Below, in pieces: positions 44,757 through 51,966 of a stretch of 64,000 nt of DNA (its first letter is position 1; every line of letters starts with the position of its first letter). Position numbers and translations under genes: made by a program. Where the stretch lies: the NCBI GenBank assembly GCA_905182075.1, contig CAJIZS010000001.1, positions 310,001 to 374,000 on the forward strand, written 5' to 3'. The notes beneath the pieces are model-generated. The model saw only the letters and a list, made by a program, of their open reading frames with translations. It ran no database searches and was not told where the DNA came from. The DNA comes from an uncultured Methylophilaceae bacterium. GTDB lineage: Bacteria; Pseudomonadota; Gammaproteobacteria; Burkholderiales; Methylophilaceae.

Positions 44757-45062
44757 ATGAAAATTATTGTAGTAAGCGGTGGCTTTGACCCAATCCATTC
44801 TGGACACATAGAGTATATAAGCTCTGCGAAAACATATGGAGAAAAGTTAATAGTTGCTCTCAATAGTGATAATTGGCTTATAAAAAAGAAGGGTAAATTC
44901 TTTATGCCCTTTTCAGAAAGAAAAAAAATACTCGAAAATATTAAGCATGTAGATGAAGTTATTGATTTTGACGATGATGTCCAGGGGACTTGCATAAATG
45001 CTTTAGAGAAGATTAAAAAATCCTATCCCAATGACGAGATATCTTTTGCAAATTACATGTAA
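44757..45062 (+). CDS. Nucleotidyltransferase of the cytidylyltransferase family, truncated
   Basis: 101 residues: VVSGGFDPIHSGHIEYISSA with the HxGH motif (HSGH), then VALNSDNWLIKKKG and PFSERKKILENIKHVDEVID. It stops at 45062 right after EISFANYM, where relatives continue with a GGD-type segment, so the 3' part is missing. Relatives include heptose- or glycerol-phosphate nucleotidyltransferases and phage enzymes. It could be host or part of a foreign stretch. Confidence 0.6.
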   Translation: MKIIVVSGGFDPIHSGHIEYISSAKTYGEKLIVALNSDNWLIKKKGKFFMPFSERKKILENIKHVDEVIDFDDDVQGTCINALEKIKKSYPNDEISFANYM

Positions 45063-45387: not shown

Positions 45388-45964
45388 ATGGAGAGACGTA
45401 TGGAGTTTGAAGATATTTTAAAGCTTATGAAAAGTGAGAACCATGTTTTGAAAGATAGTGGTTTTAATGAGGTATTTAAAAAATTAGAACAACCACTAAT
45501 AGGTTTTTATATGCATAGAAAACTGAATAAAAGTGAAGCTGAAGAAGTAGTGATTTCGAGCTTAGTTAAGAATTTGATTACCATACTTACAGTTTTAATT
45601 TTAACATCTTGCACTGAACAAGATCAGATAAATACTAAGCTTCTTGATCATTTTAAAAAATATAAAAAATATAAAAATGATGTTTTAAATTTACGCATTC
45701 GTGAAGATAGTTGAAAGAGTCTCGTCGCAGAAAGAAAGAAAAAAGGAAATGGAAAGGGAGGAGTGTGTGACGATTGGATTGCAAAAATTTGGAAGGGCAA
45801 TGCCTGAAAGAGAATTCGCTCTGAGTCTGAAAATGCAAAATTTTTCTAATCAACAAATAAGTTTAAGAATCGGAAGAACACTTGCTGCAACAAAAGAATT
45901 TATGAGTCAAAATTATAAAAGGTTAAAACCATTTTTAGAAGATTGTGTTGGGGGTAATGATTAA
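45388..45964 (+). CDS. ECF-type RNA polymerase sigma factor, centre replaced
   Basis: The first part reads FNEVFKKLEQPLIGFYMHRK and LNKSEAEEVV, the start of sigma region 2 (the rest of the -10-binding helix is absent). From about 45701 a second frame reads FGRAMPEREFALSLKMQNFS then NQQISLRIGRTLAATKEFM, a region-4 helix-turn-helix, ending LKPFLEDC. Between them a lipoprotein-like start intrudes. It ends exactly at the start of the next gene (a membrane protein), the usual sigma/anti-sigma arrangement. Confidence 0.55.
45548..45700 (+). pseudogene. Foreign-looking patch: lipoprotein signal peptide inside the sigma gene
   Basis: In the open frame at about 45548 (gtg atttcg) the sequence reads LVKNLITILTVLILTSC followed by TEQDQINTKLLDHFKKYKKY: a textbook lipoprotein signal with lipobox LTSC, which has no place in a cytosolic sigma factor. 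Confidence 0.5.
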
Positions 45965-46648
45965 TGACAAACAATGAAAAAGACTGGTTTGCTACTTTAT
46001 CAGGCGAAAAAGTTACTGGAATGAATCCTAGAACTAGATTACAAGCTAGATTGGTTCGCAGTGTCTTTAAAAAAAGAACTGAAGAAATTAATAAAAATAT
46101 TAATGAAGATGATAATAAATCTACATCAAAAATTTATCAGCGAATTGGTAAAAGCGGGATTATTGAAAAAAAAATCGAAACCATGGTTAAAAAAATTATT
46201 CGATAAAAATAATTGGTTAATTTTATTAGCAATTGGTGCTGGTGGAGTATATGCAACTAAGGAATATATGCGTTCAGATGTTATTCAACTCGTTGATCAG
46301 CCACAATTAATTGAAGAGCCAGTAGTGGGATCAAAAATAGGTTTTTGGGGAAATTGGTTTGATGCCCAAGGAGGCTTTACTGGTTTTTGGTCAAGGATTC
46401 AATTAGAAATGACTGGGCGCTTAGAGGAACCTATTCCAACTGATTCAACTCAATGTAGCCCTGATTATCTGTCAATTAATGGATGTTTAGCTTTAGCAAA
46501 TAATGGAGACTCTGCAGCGCAATTTAATTTAGGTCTGATGTACGAAAAAGGATTAAAAGTAGAGCAAAGTTATGAAAAAGCATTTGAGTGGTATAAGAAA
46601 TCTTCGGCTTTAGGAAACAAACCAGCATCTATAAACAGAGACTATTGA
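45964..46648 (+). CDS. Membrane protein with Sel1 repeat, possible anti-sigma factor (frameshifted)
   Basis: N-terminal cytosolic part NEKDWFATLSGEKVTGMNPR then TRLQARLVRSVFKKR. The DxWFAxLSG...R...EAxxLR pattern is common in proteins paired with ECF sigma genes. A shift near 46140-46200 leads to a transmembrane segment (NWLILLAIGAGGVYATKEYM), then a periplasmic region and one Sel1 unit (AAQFNLGLMYEKGLKVEQSY) before a foreign DnaQ-like fragment cuts it at about 46625. Function as an anti-sigma is inferred from position only. Confidence 0.5.
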
Positions 46649-46732
46649 ACAGTCAGAATTTGTGGTGGGTCATAATATTATTTTTGACATAAATATTATG
46701 GGTGCCGAGTTTCATCGAACTCTATTTTTATA
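46625..46732 (+). pseudogene. Foreign patch: DnaQ-type exonuclease fragment
   Basis: From about 46634 an open frame reads ETIEQSEFVVGHNIIFDINI and MGAEFHRTLFL then stop. VVGHNIxFDIxIxxxEF is the ExoII motif region of DEDD-type proofreading exonucleases. It truncates the Sel1 gene and fills the space before the next gene. Confidence 0.55.
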
Positions 46733-46741
46733 GGAAGAAAA

Positions 46742-47986
46742 ATGAAATTAAAAAAAATATCACTAATGATAAGTCAGCTATTACTAGCTTCCTCAATAAG
46801 TTATGCAGAACCCTGCCAAGATAAAAATTTTTGGCAAGCTTGGTATGACAATTCCCAGTTTAAGGGTTTTGGAATTCCACCTGATTCAAAGGATGTCACT
46901 AATGCCCAGTATAGATTTGCTGAGAATTACTTTATAGGAAACGTATTAACTAAAGACTATACAAGAGCAATTAATTTATTTCAGCGAGCGGCAAACTCCG
47001 GGCTTAACCAAGCACATTTTAAACTTGGACTCATTAACCATTATGGTAAAGGTAAGGTTAGAGATTTAAACAAGGCTTATGCACATTATGAAAGATCTGC
47101 AAAAAATAATAACCCAGAAGCACAATTTAATTTAGGCCTGATAAACCGATATGGATTAGGTAGATCAAAAAATATGTCAAAGGCTTTTGAATGGTTTACA
47201 AAGTCTGCTGTTCAACAAACTGCACTAGATATTAATCACTGCAAAATTCAATTAGCAGGAGTAATGGAAGCCCAATTTAATTTAGCACAAATGTATCACT
47301 ACGGATTAGGGGTTTCGAAGGACATAGCACAGGCAGCTTATTGGTATGAAAAGGCAGCTCTAAATAACATGAAAGAAGCCCAATTTAATTTAGCTAAATT
47401 ACTAATCAAGGGAAAAGGAGTTAAATATGATTTTAATAGAGCTATGGAAAACTATCGACTTGCAGCACAACAGGGTTTGGCTGAAGCACAGCTTAATCTC
47501 GCGCAAATGTTACATTATGGACCTAAAAATTTCCAAGATCATGCTTTGGCCTATGTTTGGTACACCAAGGCAGCTAAAAAAGGATTCTCCGAAGCAGAAT
47601 TTAATTTAGGACTAATGAAACATTATGGCCGTGGCACTCATCGTGATTATCAAGCTGCTTTAAGTCATTATTTGAAATCTGCTAAGGGCGGTCAATCAGA
47701 AGCACATCTTAATTTAGGTTATTTATATCATTATGGCCTGGGTACTTCTGTCGATAATAAAAAAGCGTTTTCATATTTCACAAAAGCAGCACAAGAAGGT
47801 TTCCCGCAAGCCGAATATCACTTAGGCATTATTTACGAGAGAGGCTTATGGGTTAAAAAAGATTTAGATCAGGCAACTTCATGGTTTGAGAAAGCTGCGG
47901 CACAAAATTTAACTGAAGCACAACTCATAATGAGTGAGCGCTCAATTAGAGAGCCAGACGATGTTGATATGTATGCAAAAAATTAG
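46742..47986 (+). CDS. Secreted Sel1-repeat protein
   Basis: 414 residues, intact. Signal peptide MKLKKISLMISQLLLASSIS cut after SYA. Eight to nine Sel1 units (AxFxLGLxxxYGxGxxxDxxKAxxWxxxAA), such as AHFKLGLINHYGKGKVRD, AQFNLGLINRYGLGRSKN and AQFNLAQMYHYGLGVSKD. Between units 3 and 4 there is a ~15-residue insertion (TALDINHCKIQLAGVM) that breaks the register. Sel1 arrays are protein-binding superhelices. It lies downstream of the sigma and Sel1 membrane genes, so the three may form one signalling locus. Confidence 0.85.
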   Translation: MKLKKISLMISQLLLASSISYAEPCQDKNFWQAWYDNSQFKGFGIPPDSKDVTNAQYRFAENYFIGNVLTKDYTRAINLFQRAANSGLNQAHFKLGLINHYGKGKVRDLNKAYAHYERSAKNNNPEAQFNLGLINRYGLGRSKNMSKAFEWFTKSAVQQTALDINHCKIQLAGVMEAQFNLAQMYHYGLGVSKDIAQAAYWYEKAALNNMKEAQFNLAKLLIKGKGVKYDFNRAMENYRLAAQQGLAEAQLNLAQMLHYGPKNFQDHALAYVWYTKAAKKGFSEAEFNLGLMKHYGRGTHRDYQAALSHYLKSAKGGQSEAHLNLGYLYHYGLGTSVDNKKAFSYFTKAAQEGFPQAEYHLGIIYERGLWVKKDLDQATSWFEKAAAQNLTEAQLIMSERSIREPDDVDMYAKN

Positions 47987-48541: not shown

Positions 48542-48967
48542 TCATTTTAATAGAATTAATTGAGGAATGGCATCATTATTAATCCATAAGATTGCATTTT
48601 GGTGAAATTGATTACCTAGTTCTTTGGCGAGCGATAATTCTGTACCAAAAACCAGAAAACTTTTTTCACCTGGATATTGAGTTTCAGGACAAATACCTTC
48701 GGATAGAATATATGGATAATTCATCTTTATTAGTAAAGATTCGAGCTTACTATTCATTGATTTATTTTGTTTTGTAGTCATTTCTTGGCTCAATGGGTTA
48801 TAGGCAGTTAAAAAAGAAGCTTGATTTCTATTAAATTTTTGATATAAATTTATGAGATCCGAAGACGTTTTCCCTACTTTTAAGATAAATTTAGATTCAG
48901 AGTAAACATGATACTCTGCGTTTATATATGACTCTAAATTTTCAGGACTAATATTAGATGAAACCAT
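48542..48967 (-). CDS. DUF3293-like protein
   Basis: About 141 residues if started at MVSSNISPENLESYINAEYH (48967); an upstream in-frame ATG at 48976 is also possible. FLTAYNPLSQEMTTKQNKSM, with the TAxNPxS...N motif, and the closing NQFHQNAILWI fit the DUF3293 family of unknown function. It overlaps or abuts the AOX-OYE fusion gene on the same strand, so co-transcription is likely. The frame is intact. Confidence 0.6.
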   Translation of the reverse strand: MVSSNISPENLESYINAEYHVYSESKFILKVGKTSSDLINLYQKFNRNQASFLTAYNPLSQEMTTKQNKSMNSKLESLLIKMNYPYILSEGICPETQYPGEKSFLVFGTELSLAKELGNQFHQNAILWINNDAIPQLILLK

Positions 48968-48976
48968 AAGTTGCAA

Positions 48977-50725
48977 TTAGCTTTTTGGGTAAAATGGATA
49001 GTCTGTATAACCTTCCTCGTTGCCACCATAAAACGTTTTTTCGTCTGCTTCATTGAGAGGTAGATCGTGTTCAAGCCTATAAACAAGATCGGGATTAGAA
49101 ATAAAAGGTATTCCAAAAGCTACTAAATCAATTTTAGTAGATTCACTCCGATATTTGTCATTTCCATTATCAGCCATATTATAAAGACCTCCGGAGTCTT
49201 TAAATGAAAGGTGAACCTGATTAAAGTCAAAAGGAAGCTTGCCATGTGTGTTATTAGTTTCTCCTTCATTTACATGAAGATAAGCTAATTTTTTTCTTCC
49301 TAAAGTTTTTGCTACTTGATTAAAAAGATCTTGTGGCTCCGAGTCAGAAATATCGTTAAATCCTGATACTGGAGAAATTCTACAACCAATTCTATGAGGA
49401 GGGTAGATTGTTGAAATGGCTTCAACAATTTCAGCAAGAAATCTTATTCTATTTTCAATCGGACCACCATATTGGTCTGTTCGATGATTTGTACTATCTC
49501 TTAAAAATTGATCTATAAGATATCCATTAGCACCATGGATATCTACCATATCAAATCCCGCTTTTTTCGCATTTACGGCAGCTTGTCGGTAGTCCTCTAT
49601 AATTCTAATAATTTCTTCCGTTTCAAGGGCACGAGGCATTGAAACACTCACTTTCTCTGAGATATCTCTATTAGGATTTAAGCCTGCTTGAAGCCAAACC
49701 TCAGCTTTTGCTTTAATGGCTGATGGAGCAACAGGTTCAGAGTTATTAGGCTGTAGTTCTTCATGTGAAATTCGACCAACGTGCGAAAGCTGTAAACATA
49801 TTTTTCCGCCACCCTCATGCACCGCATCAACTATATTTTTCCAACTTTTTGTTTGTTCTTCTGAATAAATTCCTGGTGTTCCGCAATAGCCTTGTCCTTC
49901 TTGGCTGATTTGAGCAGCCTCAGCAATTATTAAGCCCGCACTTGCCCGTTGTTGATAATAAGTAGACATGATTGAAGTGGGAATTCCTTTAATAGAGGCT
50001 CTACTTCGGGTAAGTGGTGCCATGATAACTCGATTGAATAAAGGTAGGTCACCCAATATAAACCTATGGTAAAGGCTATTAGAGCTAGTAAAAAAAGGCT
50101 CTTCTTTTTTTATTTCAGCTTCAGGTACAACTTTAACTTTATCTTGGTCTAGGGTATCTGCTAATCCGTGATTAACTTTTGAGTGTCTTTCCTTATCATC
50201 ACGAACTGCTTCTATGACGTCAAGTAAGTTAGCGTCTGCGTCTAAATTCCAATAATCCTTGGCAATTTTTGGAGCATCAATATTAAGAGATGGTTGGGCT
50301 GTTACTTGTTTGTGGTATGCAGTGTAACTAGAAGCGACTTCGTCTTCGAAATATCCTACTAATCTGTGAGCAGTTCTTTGGAAAAAAACATAAAGTAAGA
50401 AATAGAAATTCCAAAAAATTATTTGTGCCAATAAAATTAATAAGCGCTCATACCATTTAGGCTTAGTAATTTCTATAAAAGTCATTAAATGCATGCGTTC
50501 GTTTTCAGCCTCATCAAGTAAAATTTTAATCCAACCACGATCATCTTTCATCTTTATAAGACAGGTTAAACGAATCCACATACTTCCAACCATTCCAGGA
50601 ACTGCTGCAACTGTTTCTAAAACAACAGCTCTATGACCATAGCGTTTAGCAAAAAAAGTATCAGCAAAAAGACGTAAAATTTTAGTAATGGTGAGTACGA
50701 TATGATCACTTACGGATACAGGAGT
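48977..50725 (-). CDS. Alternative oxidase / Old Yellow Enzyme fusion
   Basis: One open frame carries two enzyme domains. The frame is open from 50725; the first ATG is at 50593. Upstream of it lie FADTFFAKRYGHRAVVLETV and AAVPGM with the first diiron Glu. Numbered from that ATG, AOX motifs are ENERMHLMTF (E32, H35), two membrane-associated segments (51-71), GYFEDEVASSYT (E83) and RDDKERHSKVNH, where the family's ExxH has Lys134 in place of Glu but keeps H137. A ~30-residue linker without Met joins a complete OYE domain: ILGDLPLFNRVIMAPLTRSR, QLSHVGRISH, the HGANGYLIDQFLRDS catalytic HxxN, QYGGPIENRIRF, and IDLVAFGIPFISNPDLV. Roles: quinol:O2 oxidation and FMN ene-reduction. The start is unclear because a TGA at 50728 interrupts the N-terminus. 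Confidence 0.85.
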   Translation of the reverse strand, partial: TPVSVSDHIVLTITKILRLFADTFFAKRYGHRAVVLETVAAVPGMVGSMWIRLTCLIKMKDDRGWIKILLDEAENERMHLMTFIEITKPKWYERLLILLAQIIFWNFYFLLYVFFQRTAHRLVGYFEDEVASSYTAYHKQVTAQPSLNIDAPKIAKDYWNLDADANLLDVIEAVRDDKERHSKVNHGLADTLDQDKVKVVPEAEIKKEEPFFTSSNSLYHRFILGDLPLFNRVIMAPLTRSRASIKGIPTSIMSTYYQQRASAGLIIAEAAQISQEGQGYCGTPGIYSEEQTKSWKNIVDAVHEGGGKICLQLSHVGRISHEELQPNNSEPVAPSAIKAKAEVWLQAGLNPNRDISEKVSVSMPRALETEEIIRIIEDYRQAAVNAKKAGFDMVDIHGANGYLIDQFLRDSTNHRTDQYGGPIENRIRFLAEIVEAISTIYPPHRIGCRISPVSGFNDISDSEPQDLFNQVAKTLGRKKLAYLHVNEGETNNTHGKLPFDFNQVHLSFKDSGGLYNMADNGNDKYRSESTKIDLVAFGIPFISNPDLVYRLEHDLPLNEADEKTFYGGNEEGYTDYPFYPKS

Positions 50726-50747
50726 TCAAATCTGACCGTGACTACCA
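50724..50747 (+). other. tRNA 3'-end-like remnant at the AOX 5' boundary
   Basis: Plus-strand gttcaaatctgaccgtgact followed by acca has the order T-loop TTCAAAT, T-stem CTGAC, seven acceptor bases, discriminator A, CCA. No matching 5' half lies upstream. It coincides with the point where the AOX reading frame breaks, so it may be the edge of another foreign patch. Confidence 0.35.
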
Positions 50748-50894: not shown

Positions 50895-51389
50895 TAATCT
50901 TTGAAGATTTTATAAGAGCGTGATAATTTTGCTTTCATAGAAAAAGAATTAAATGCAGCTTTTACCTTATCTTTATCTAGTTTTCCATTTATTGCTATCC
51001 AATTAATAGCTCCATTAGTGTCGCTGGGGTTAAGAACTTTTTCTTTGTGAATAGCATTAAATAATTTTTCATGAAGTGTATTTTCTAATCCCAAAGATTC
51101 TAAAGCATAATAAGCTTTAGCCATAGGCACCCAATCTTTTCTTGGTATTGCTGGCATTCTTTTAAAAATTACATCTTTTGGAAGGTTATCTGCCCATTTG
51201 TCTAGATATGGGTCCATTGTGTAACAGTGGATACATCCGTACCAAAAAAGCTCTATAACCTCAATTTTATCTACTAAATCAGCATCCAGATTTTTAGTTG
51301 CTGCCTCTACATTTAACTCCAGGCTCGGGCTGAACTGCGAACGCTATAGTCGAAAAAAGAGCAAATAAAACAATAAATATTTTTTTCAT
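50894..51389 (-). CDS. dsbA: Thiol:disulfide interchange protein DsbA (one frameshift)
   Basis: Periplasmic dithiol oxidase. Signal peptide MKKIFIVLFALFSTIAFA; active site ELFWYGCIHCYTMDPYLDKW with a CIHC pair; helical insertion RMPAIPRKDWVPMAKAYYAL. A shift near 51315 separates the signal region from the rest. About 165 residues, shorter than many DsbA proteins (~190). It stands between the SPOR protein and the AOX-OYE gene, as expected for the betaproteobacterial argS-SPOR-dsbA order. Confidence 0.9.
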
Positions 51390-51411: not shown

Positions 51412-51966
51412 TTAGGATTTAGGCTTGGTTAGTTTAATTAAGTTCGGTTTAAAACCATCTTTAATAAGTTTTTCTCTAATCTCTCTTGCTTTCACTAATT
51501 CTAGGTAAGGACCTACACTAACCCTATGAAAGGTGTTGTCACCAATTTTGGCCGACATAATAACTGATTCAAAACCCATTAAAGCTAAAATTGCTTTTAA
51601 ATTATCTGCCGCAGAGCTTTCAGAAAAGGCTTCAACTTGAAGGTAATAATTAATATCTCGATTTTGGTCTATAATTCTCTCAATTTTTTCTTCGGTATAG
51701 GTGGAGTTATTTTTTGGAAGAGTGTTATAGAAATCATAACTTGTATCATCATCAATATTGATTGCATCTTCATCCCCTAAGGCTGAATTTACTTCTATGC
51801 AGGACCCTATTGTTTCTTTGGAAATAAAAGGGCTTTTTCCATTAGTTATGAACAAGGTTACGGCAATTGATACCAATATCCCTAAAAGAAGACCAAAAAA
51901 AAGCCCATTTGTAAAAGGAGTCCCTTCTGCTTTTTTTTCTTTTTTGGTTCTATAGTCTTCAGCCAT
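51412..51966 (-). CDS. SPOR-domain membrane protein
   Basis: 184 residues: a short basic cytoplasmic N-terminus (MAEDYRTKKEKKAEG), one transmembrane helix (GLFFGLLLGILVSIAVTLFI), an acidic linker and a C-terminal SPOR domain (YYLQVEAFSESSAADNLKAI, FHRVSVGPYLELVKAREI) that binds denuded peptidoglycan at division sites. Intact; 11 bases from argS. Confidence 0.88.
   Translation of the reverse strand: MAEDYRTKKEKKAEGTPFTNGLFFGLLLGILVSIAVTLFITNGKSPFISKETIGSCIEVNSALGDEDAINIDDDTSYDFYNTLPKNNSTYTEEKIERIIDQNRDINYYLQVEAFSESSAADNLKAILALMGFESVIMSAKIGDNTFHRVSVGPYLELVKAREIREKLIKDGFKPNLIKLTKPKS

Follow-up and report, generated by a model that had tools for sequence, protein, structure and literature searches.

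The closest described relatives of the protein analyzed here are the alternative oxidases (AOX; PF01786), represented by T. brucei AOX (3vv9), and the Old Yellow Enzymes (OYE; PF00724) of the NemA, glycerol trinitrate (GTN) reductase, and NostocER1 kind (5epd, 4jiq, 6uff, 8bpp). For trypanosomal AOX, we take the diiron ligands to be E123, E162, H165, E213, E266, and H269, a numbering that agrees with our alignment to 3vv9; for OYE, we assume a catalytic His/Asn pair, a proton-donor Tyr, FMN-contacting Thr and Arg, and an active-site Trp. In several bacteria of OM43, a clade of small marine methylotrophs, the two enzymes are found in one chain. The OM43 copies checked, other than the one analyzed here, have the whole AOX domain and its six diiron ligands; the fused copies differ from other alternative oxidases in adding a complete OYE as a C-terminal extension. 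The OYE half resembles known members over the full barrel, with 54% identity to NerA and FMN and active-site residues retained in intact copies, but unlike the NemA class it sits C-terminal to a membrane oxidase. Judged from sequence comparison, AOX–OYE is a new architecture of a known enzyme, real and functional-looking, and confined to OM43 as far as we searched.

The window, the whole 64,000-nucleotide stretch of an uncultured Methylophilaceae genome that was analyzed, holds a minus-strand frame that is open from position 50725 to a TAA at 48977–48979, with no stop between the domains. The frame and its surroundings contain the following features:

48977..50725, minus strand: AOX–OYE fusion ORF, 582 codons plus TAA, with homologues in relatives
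50156..50722, minus strand: AOX domain (PF01786), frame residues 2–190, Pfam E = 1.8e-66
50069..50155, minus strand: linker of ~30 residues, the gap between the Pfam domains
49052..50068, minus strand: OYE domain (Oxidored_FMN, PF00724), NemA and GTN-reductase type, residues 220–558, Pfam E = 3.4e-73
50192..50194, minus strand: Lys codon, residue 178, at a diiron Glu site, by alignment to trypanosomal AOX E266
50726..50728, minus strand: in-frame TGA replacing the Arg codon of the relatives' "HRTP" near the AOX start, by comparison with relatives
48542..48976, minus strand: DUF3293 ORF in the same frame, directly after the OYE stop, by Pfam
50897..51334, minus strand: dsbA-like gene, conserved neighbor upstream of the fusion, a partial match with the family named on a relative's copy
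51418..51966, minus strand: SPOR-domain gene, conserved neighbor, family named on a relative's copy

An earlier note, written from the letters alone, had described this frame as AOX joined to OYE, and its coordinates and both domains were borne out by the Pfam matches. The AOX domain scored 224.3 bits in the window and 265.8 bits in the cultured OM43 strain HTCC2181, both above the cut-off of 22.7, and Oxidored_FMN was matched over its full length (profile positions 4–342 of 342 in the window; 7–342 with E = 1.4e-76 in HTCC2181). The TAA of the window frame lies at the same position as the OYE end in the aligned relatives. For the NCBIfam NemA subfamily, the scores of 393.3 (HTCC2181) and 367.8 bits (window) fell below the cut-off of 403; on sequence grounds, the fused OYE is a member of the NemA class but should not carry the name NemA.

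The window copy itself has several defects. A start codon is missing where the homologues begin, and its first ATG (50593) is already past the first diiron Glu. The letters "RDDKERH", which had been read as an intact ExxH motif, do not hold up as such: at the position aligned with E266, the window has Lys where all 16 of the other OM43 AOX copies checked have Glu, leaving the window copy with five of the six diiron ligands, so the fusion cannot be called ligand-complete from this copy alone. The active-site Trp of the OYE half is Ser. The missing start and the two replacements may be assembly errors or real decay of this copy. The genome is assembled into two contigs totaling 1.1 Mb at 47% completeness, and compared with proteins of relatives, the coding sequence within positions 1–64000 is broken roughly once per kb. 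We matched proteins from 100-kb stretches of two relatives, G019 and G015, to the window, leaving out one low-coverage G015 protein. The G019 proteins matched 32 window genes, 17 of them in more than one piece (36 extra pieces), and the G015 proteins matched 41, with 19 in more than one piece (34 extra pieces); matched against each other, the two relatives had 0 of 52 and 0 of 50 genes in more than one piece. A piece boundary mostly marks a frame change, and low local similarity can also produce one. The interrupted genes presumably include argS and priA. Given so many breaks, letters seen in the window only are weak evidence, the genes read from this assembly call for caution, and we judged the fusion on the other genomes of the genus.

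Our sample of the genus comprised 31 genomes, the window genome included. Seven carry AOX–OYE, six AOX–DUF3293, and four AOX alone; one has a stop-containing AOX remnant of 61 residues (G002), and 13 gave no match, with nothing found up to E = 10 when seven of these, each 99% complete, were searched again. The in-frame fusion with a complete OYE proposed in the earlier note recurs free of stops in six related genomes. It is complete in HTCC2181 (G015), G028, G026, and G005 and truncated by the contig start in G025, while in G009 it is spread over two contig ends, reading through the linker into OYE until the first contig ends. One AOX–DUF3293 copy (G017) is truncated by a contig end. By Pfam, OYE occurs among the 31 genomes in the seven fused ones only (in G009 as two contig-end pieces), and no OYE was found outside the fusion. 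AOX without OYE is present in 10 of the 17 AOX-bearing members and retains the six diiron ligands (the first Glu of G004 was read separately). DUF3293 was detected by Pfam in 10 of the 31 genomes, six times fused to AOX (L026–L031) and four times as a separate ORF (the window, G028, G013, and G026, the last truncated by a contig end). Compared with AOX–OYE, the AOX–DUF3293 proteins of other OM43 species occupy the same locus and have a homologous AOX, with DUF3293, of unknown function according to Pfam, instead of OYE. The architecture at the locus is thus fluid, with AOX–OYE, AOX–DUF3293, and AOX alone. PMC8262872 describes HTCC2181 as a representative of OM43-A, with a genome that recruited reads from every marine biome analyzed there; PMC10872708 would assign it to its own genus-level lineage, whereas the genus label used here groups it with the window genome.

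Catalytic residues are conserved in the other fused copies. Each of the six has all six diiron ligands, and in G015, G025, G028, G026, and G005, where positions were checked against 3vv9, the ligands are retained together with the Tyr. The Thr/Trp/His/Asn/Tyr/Arg set of OYE is likewise retained in these five genomes, whose copies extend over that region. Fused lineages are ~66–74% identical across the chain, and both halves are under purifying selection: in the four pairs taken as unsaturated, with saturated or nonnumeric pairs left out, dN/dS was 0.013–0.068 for AOX, the lowest value resting on a dS near 2, and 0.061–0.093 for OYE. The linker evolves faster than either domain (0.119–0.327 in these pairs), and for the pair G025–G028 its dN/dS was 0.94 over 32 codons. 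The earlier note had suggested a structure prediction of the fused chain. AlphaFold2 run on the HTCC2181 protein (589 residues, an estimated ~66 kDa) with 40 alignment rows gave a mean pLDDT of 84, with a confident OYE barrel and a helical AOX; residues 203–232 of the linker had pLDDT <50, and a pTM of 0.62 left the domain arrangement undefined. The linker is thus predicted to be flexible or disordered. With Foldseek, the barrel matched NerA (4jiq, TMt 0.92) as well as NostocER1, morphinone reductase, and NemA; all 50 listed of the 291 matches with E ≤ 0.001 fell on the OYE half, and no AOX structure was among those 50.

Searches for both domains in one chain gave no AOX–OYE outside the genus, among the matches listed. 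The order survey with the whole fusion covered 399 genomes, three of them from the genus, and scored at most three candidates per genome; long open frames at some OYE matches were left out. AOX was found in 10 of 369 genomes of the class and in 19 of 398 of the phylum, the window's included in both, with no AOX–OYE in the other frames of 176–260 aa and 205–343 aa, respectively. Among plasmids, 2,455 records had a match and none covered 80% of the query. Of the best 80 of 562 AOX loci, 76 end within ~150 residues of NERMH and the other four belong to OM43 (three AOX–OYE and one AOX–DUF3293); this comparison concerned C-terminal extensions, and long upstream frames at L132 and L136 were set aside. 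The surveys covered genomes and plasmids, and a rare or weak fusion could escape them. The author of the earlier note knew of no such protein, and we found nothing on the architecture in the titles and abstract openings of the papers listed, including work naming HTCC2181; a word search in the text of PMC5120137, PMC6794327, PMC8262872, and PMC10872708 returned "alternative oxidase" zero times in each.

Separate genes in related genomes, which would have spoken against the fusion, were found in the sister genus only; within the genus, OYE was found only joined to AOX. In this sister genus (g34), presumably Ca. Methylopumilus, AOX and OYE lie about 400 kb apart in G191 (at 864 and 1263 kb) and about 800 kb apart in G287 (at 477 and 1281 kb). 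Its standalone OYE is 61% identical to the fused one and has the same dsbA–SDR neighborhood but is a separate gene: in both genomes, it lies downstream of argS–SPOR–dsbA–SDR with small genes between, several more of them in G287, and priA is also present in the G191 stretch. In OM43, AOX or the fusion stands behind argS–SPOR–dsbA, with SDR in some genomes. Two further sister-genus genomes have AOX only (G424) or AOX and a 25-residue piece at G257:C1:1252376-1252450 (L159) with a 72% match to the OYE C terminus, the genome being without a full OYE match; the piece may be what is left of a gene since deleted. As OYE in the sister genus occupies the same neighborhood with the genes separate, AOX apparently relocated to a site ahead of the OYE gene already present at the dsbA–SDR locus; this is the simplest history.

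The surroundings of the fusion vary. Directly downstream of AOX–OYE, members of the OYE clade have a gene for a peroxiredoxin with AhpC-TSA and 1-Cys domains (L021:9535-10365, L022:6732-7562, L023:9547-10377, and L025:6636-7460, with the family tested on the L021 copy), at a distance of 14 nt in G026, 15 nt in G005, 14 nt in G028, and 6 nt in HTCC2181. In G009, the peroxiredoxin is beside the OYE fragment, and for the G025 copy no start could be assigned; in the window, none was seen downstream of the fusion. By eye, the peroxiredoxin N terminus resembles an export signal. Beside the fusion in the window, 45388–47986 of the plus strand holds small ORFs and a 414-residue repeat protein, and several relatives have ORFs of this kind next to AOX; we take the repeats to resemble Sel1. 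A short, apparently truncated ORF at 44757–45062 contains the letters GGFDPIHSGH and presumably corresponds to the N-terminal part of a nucleotidyltransferase.

In the OYE tree, which contains the window's copy but not that of G009, the six fused OYEs make up a single clade (100/100). The OM43 AOX copies also form one clade (100/98), in a tree whose four outgroup rows do not fall on one side of a branch. Within it, the window groups with AOX–DUF3293 copies (99/94), while the argS+priA tree (16 rows) places it with the AOX-alone species and G002 (94/92). The two trees are in conflict, and both show the window on a long branch. As AOX–OYE is found on both sides of the split in either tree, it was probably ancestral to the OM43 holders of AOX, with OYE lost or replaced by DUF3293 later; alternatively, the locus may have been transferred.

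The earlier note had observed that the linker contains no Met, so that OYE has no obvious start of its own; an ATG is indeed lacking in the window and in six of the seven fused genomes altogether, while G009 has an ATG there, and an in-frame TTG occurs in four of the seven. The aligned fused copies have the letters KKEEP in common. We compared AOX–OYE and AOX–DUF3293 linkers by shuffling: for the window against four of the six DUF3293 copies, two to three of 500 shuffles reached the observed score; the two remaining copies gave 31 and 39, and the 24 further pairs 10–171, the pairs being nonindependent. The result is suggestive of kinship between the two kinds of linker, and the common letters "KKEP" would fit a replacement of OYE by DUF3293, though statistically the signal is weak.

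With moderate confidence, we favor a reading in which the two enzymes are tethered in one chain, their sites most likely working in parallel, and in which the fusion arose once. Intact relatives such as HTCC2181 would then have a bifunctional inner-membrane enzyme. Its N-terminal AOX would oxidize ubiquinol and reduce O2 to water at the diiron site without pumping protons, and a flexible linker of ~30 residues would hold an FMN ene-reductase of the NemA/GTN-reductase type at the cytoplasmic face, where it would use NAD(P)H on electrophiles such as activated alkenes and perhaps small quinones. Working in parallel, the two sites would amount to two stress-relief activities produced together, and a single event would have set AOX in frame ahead of the OYE gene resident behind dsbA–SDR. 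The window copy, lacking a start and with Lys for the diiron Glu and Ser for the OYE Trp, looks as a decaying gene would, and this counts against the reading. So do the lack of an AOX structure among the 50 Foldseek matches listed, the pTM of 0.62, and the linker dN/dS of 0.94 for G025–G028. An assembly artefact or pseudogene, with the open linker erroneous or the gene dead, would agree with these same defects and with the 36 extra pieces over 32 matched window genes, yet the same stop-free fusion is present in other genomes, HTCC2181 among them, and both halves are under purifying selection; we consider it highly improbable. For the clade, an artefact can be ruled out as the cause of the open linker, since it is open in other genomes as well.

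The two sites could instead be coupled by electrons: the OYE half would pass electrons from NAD(P)H to a quinone, which the tethered AOX would reoxidize with O2, and the chain would be a self-contained, nonpumping NAD(P)H:O2 oxidase that serves redox balance. In these families, both sites are expected on the cytoplasmic side and have quinone chemistry in common in principle; the fused copy is the sole OYE found in these genomes, and the OYE clade has a peroxiredoxin gene right behind the fusion. A targeted literature search on OYE with quinones returned no paper, however, so that quinone reduction by the class is presumed here, and the modeled linker is disordered with the domain arrangement undefined. 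A passage of PMC3596305 states that the quinone lawsone inhibited E. coli NemA activity, with the data not shown there. Ten of the 17 AOX-bearing members have AOX but no OYE, and two sister-genus genomes have a standalone OYE, which favors parallel enzymes over an obligate electron relay, and we find coupling unlikely. Its boldest form, a one-chain NAD(P)H:O2 oxidase whose flavin half feeds a quinone burnt by the diiron half, would offer streamlined ocean methylotrophs a nonpumping outlet for NAD(P)H that bypasses NADH dehydrogenase, and is more speculative still. Less remote, although on balance unlikely, is a neutral fusion, brought about by AOX arriving ahead of a resident OYE gene, whose product would do what the two separate enzymes did and gain nothing from tethering. 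As AOX alone and AOX–DUF3293 exist without OYE, the fusion may be such an accident, and the sister-genus OYE behind dsbA–SDR, the fluid locus, and the fast-evolving linker are consistent with this. The survival of the fusion across lineages with ~66–74% identity along the chain speaks against it, as does the fact that no separate OYE gene was found among the 31 genomes of the genus. Our confidences in this reading and in that of tethered parallel enzymes overlap, since the two sites of a neutral fusion would act in parallel as well and the tethered reading leaves the benefit open.

In a cultured OM43 member, HTCC2181, AOX thus shares a chain with a flavin reductase that elsewhere is usually a protein by itself, and its relatives have DUF3293 instead or neither. 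For DUF3293, a domain of unknown function, the locus provides a link to AOX, the two being fused in six OM43 genomes and, in the window, DUF3293 coming next in the same frame beyond a single stop. With separate genes, fusion, swap, and loss, OM43 and its sister genus offer a natural series in which to study whether a respiratory bypass can be wired to NAD(P)H or to electrophile detoxification.
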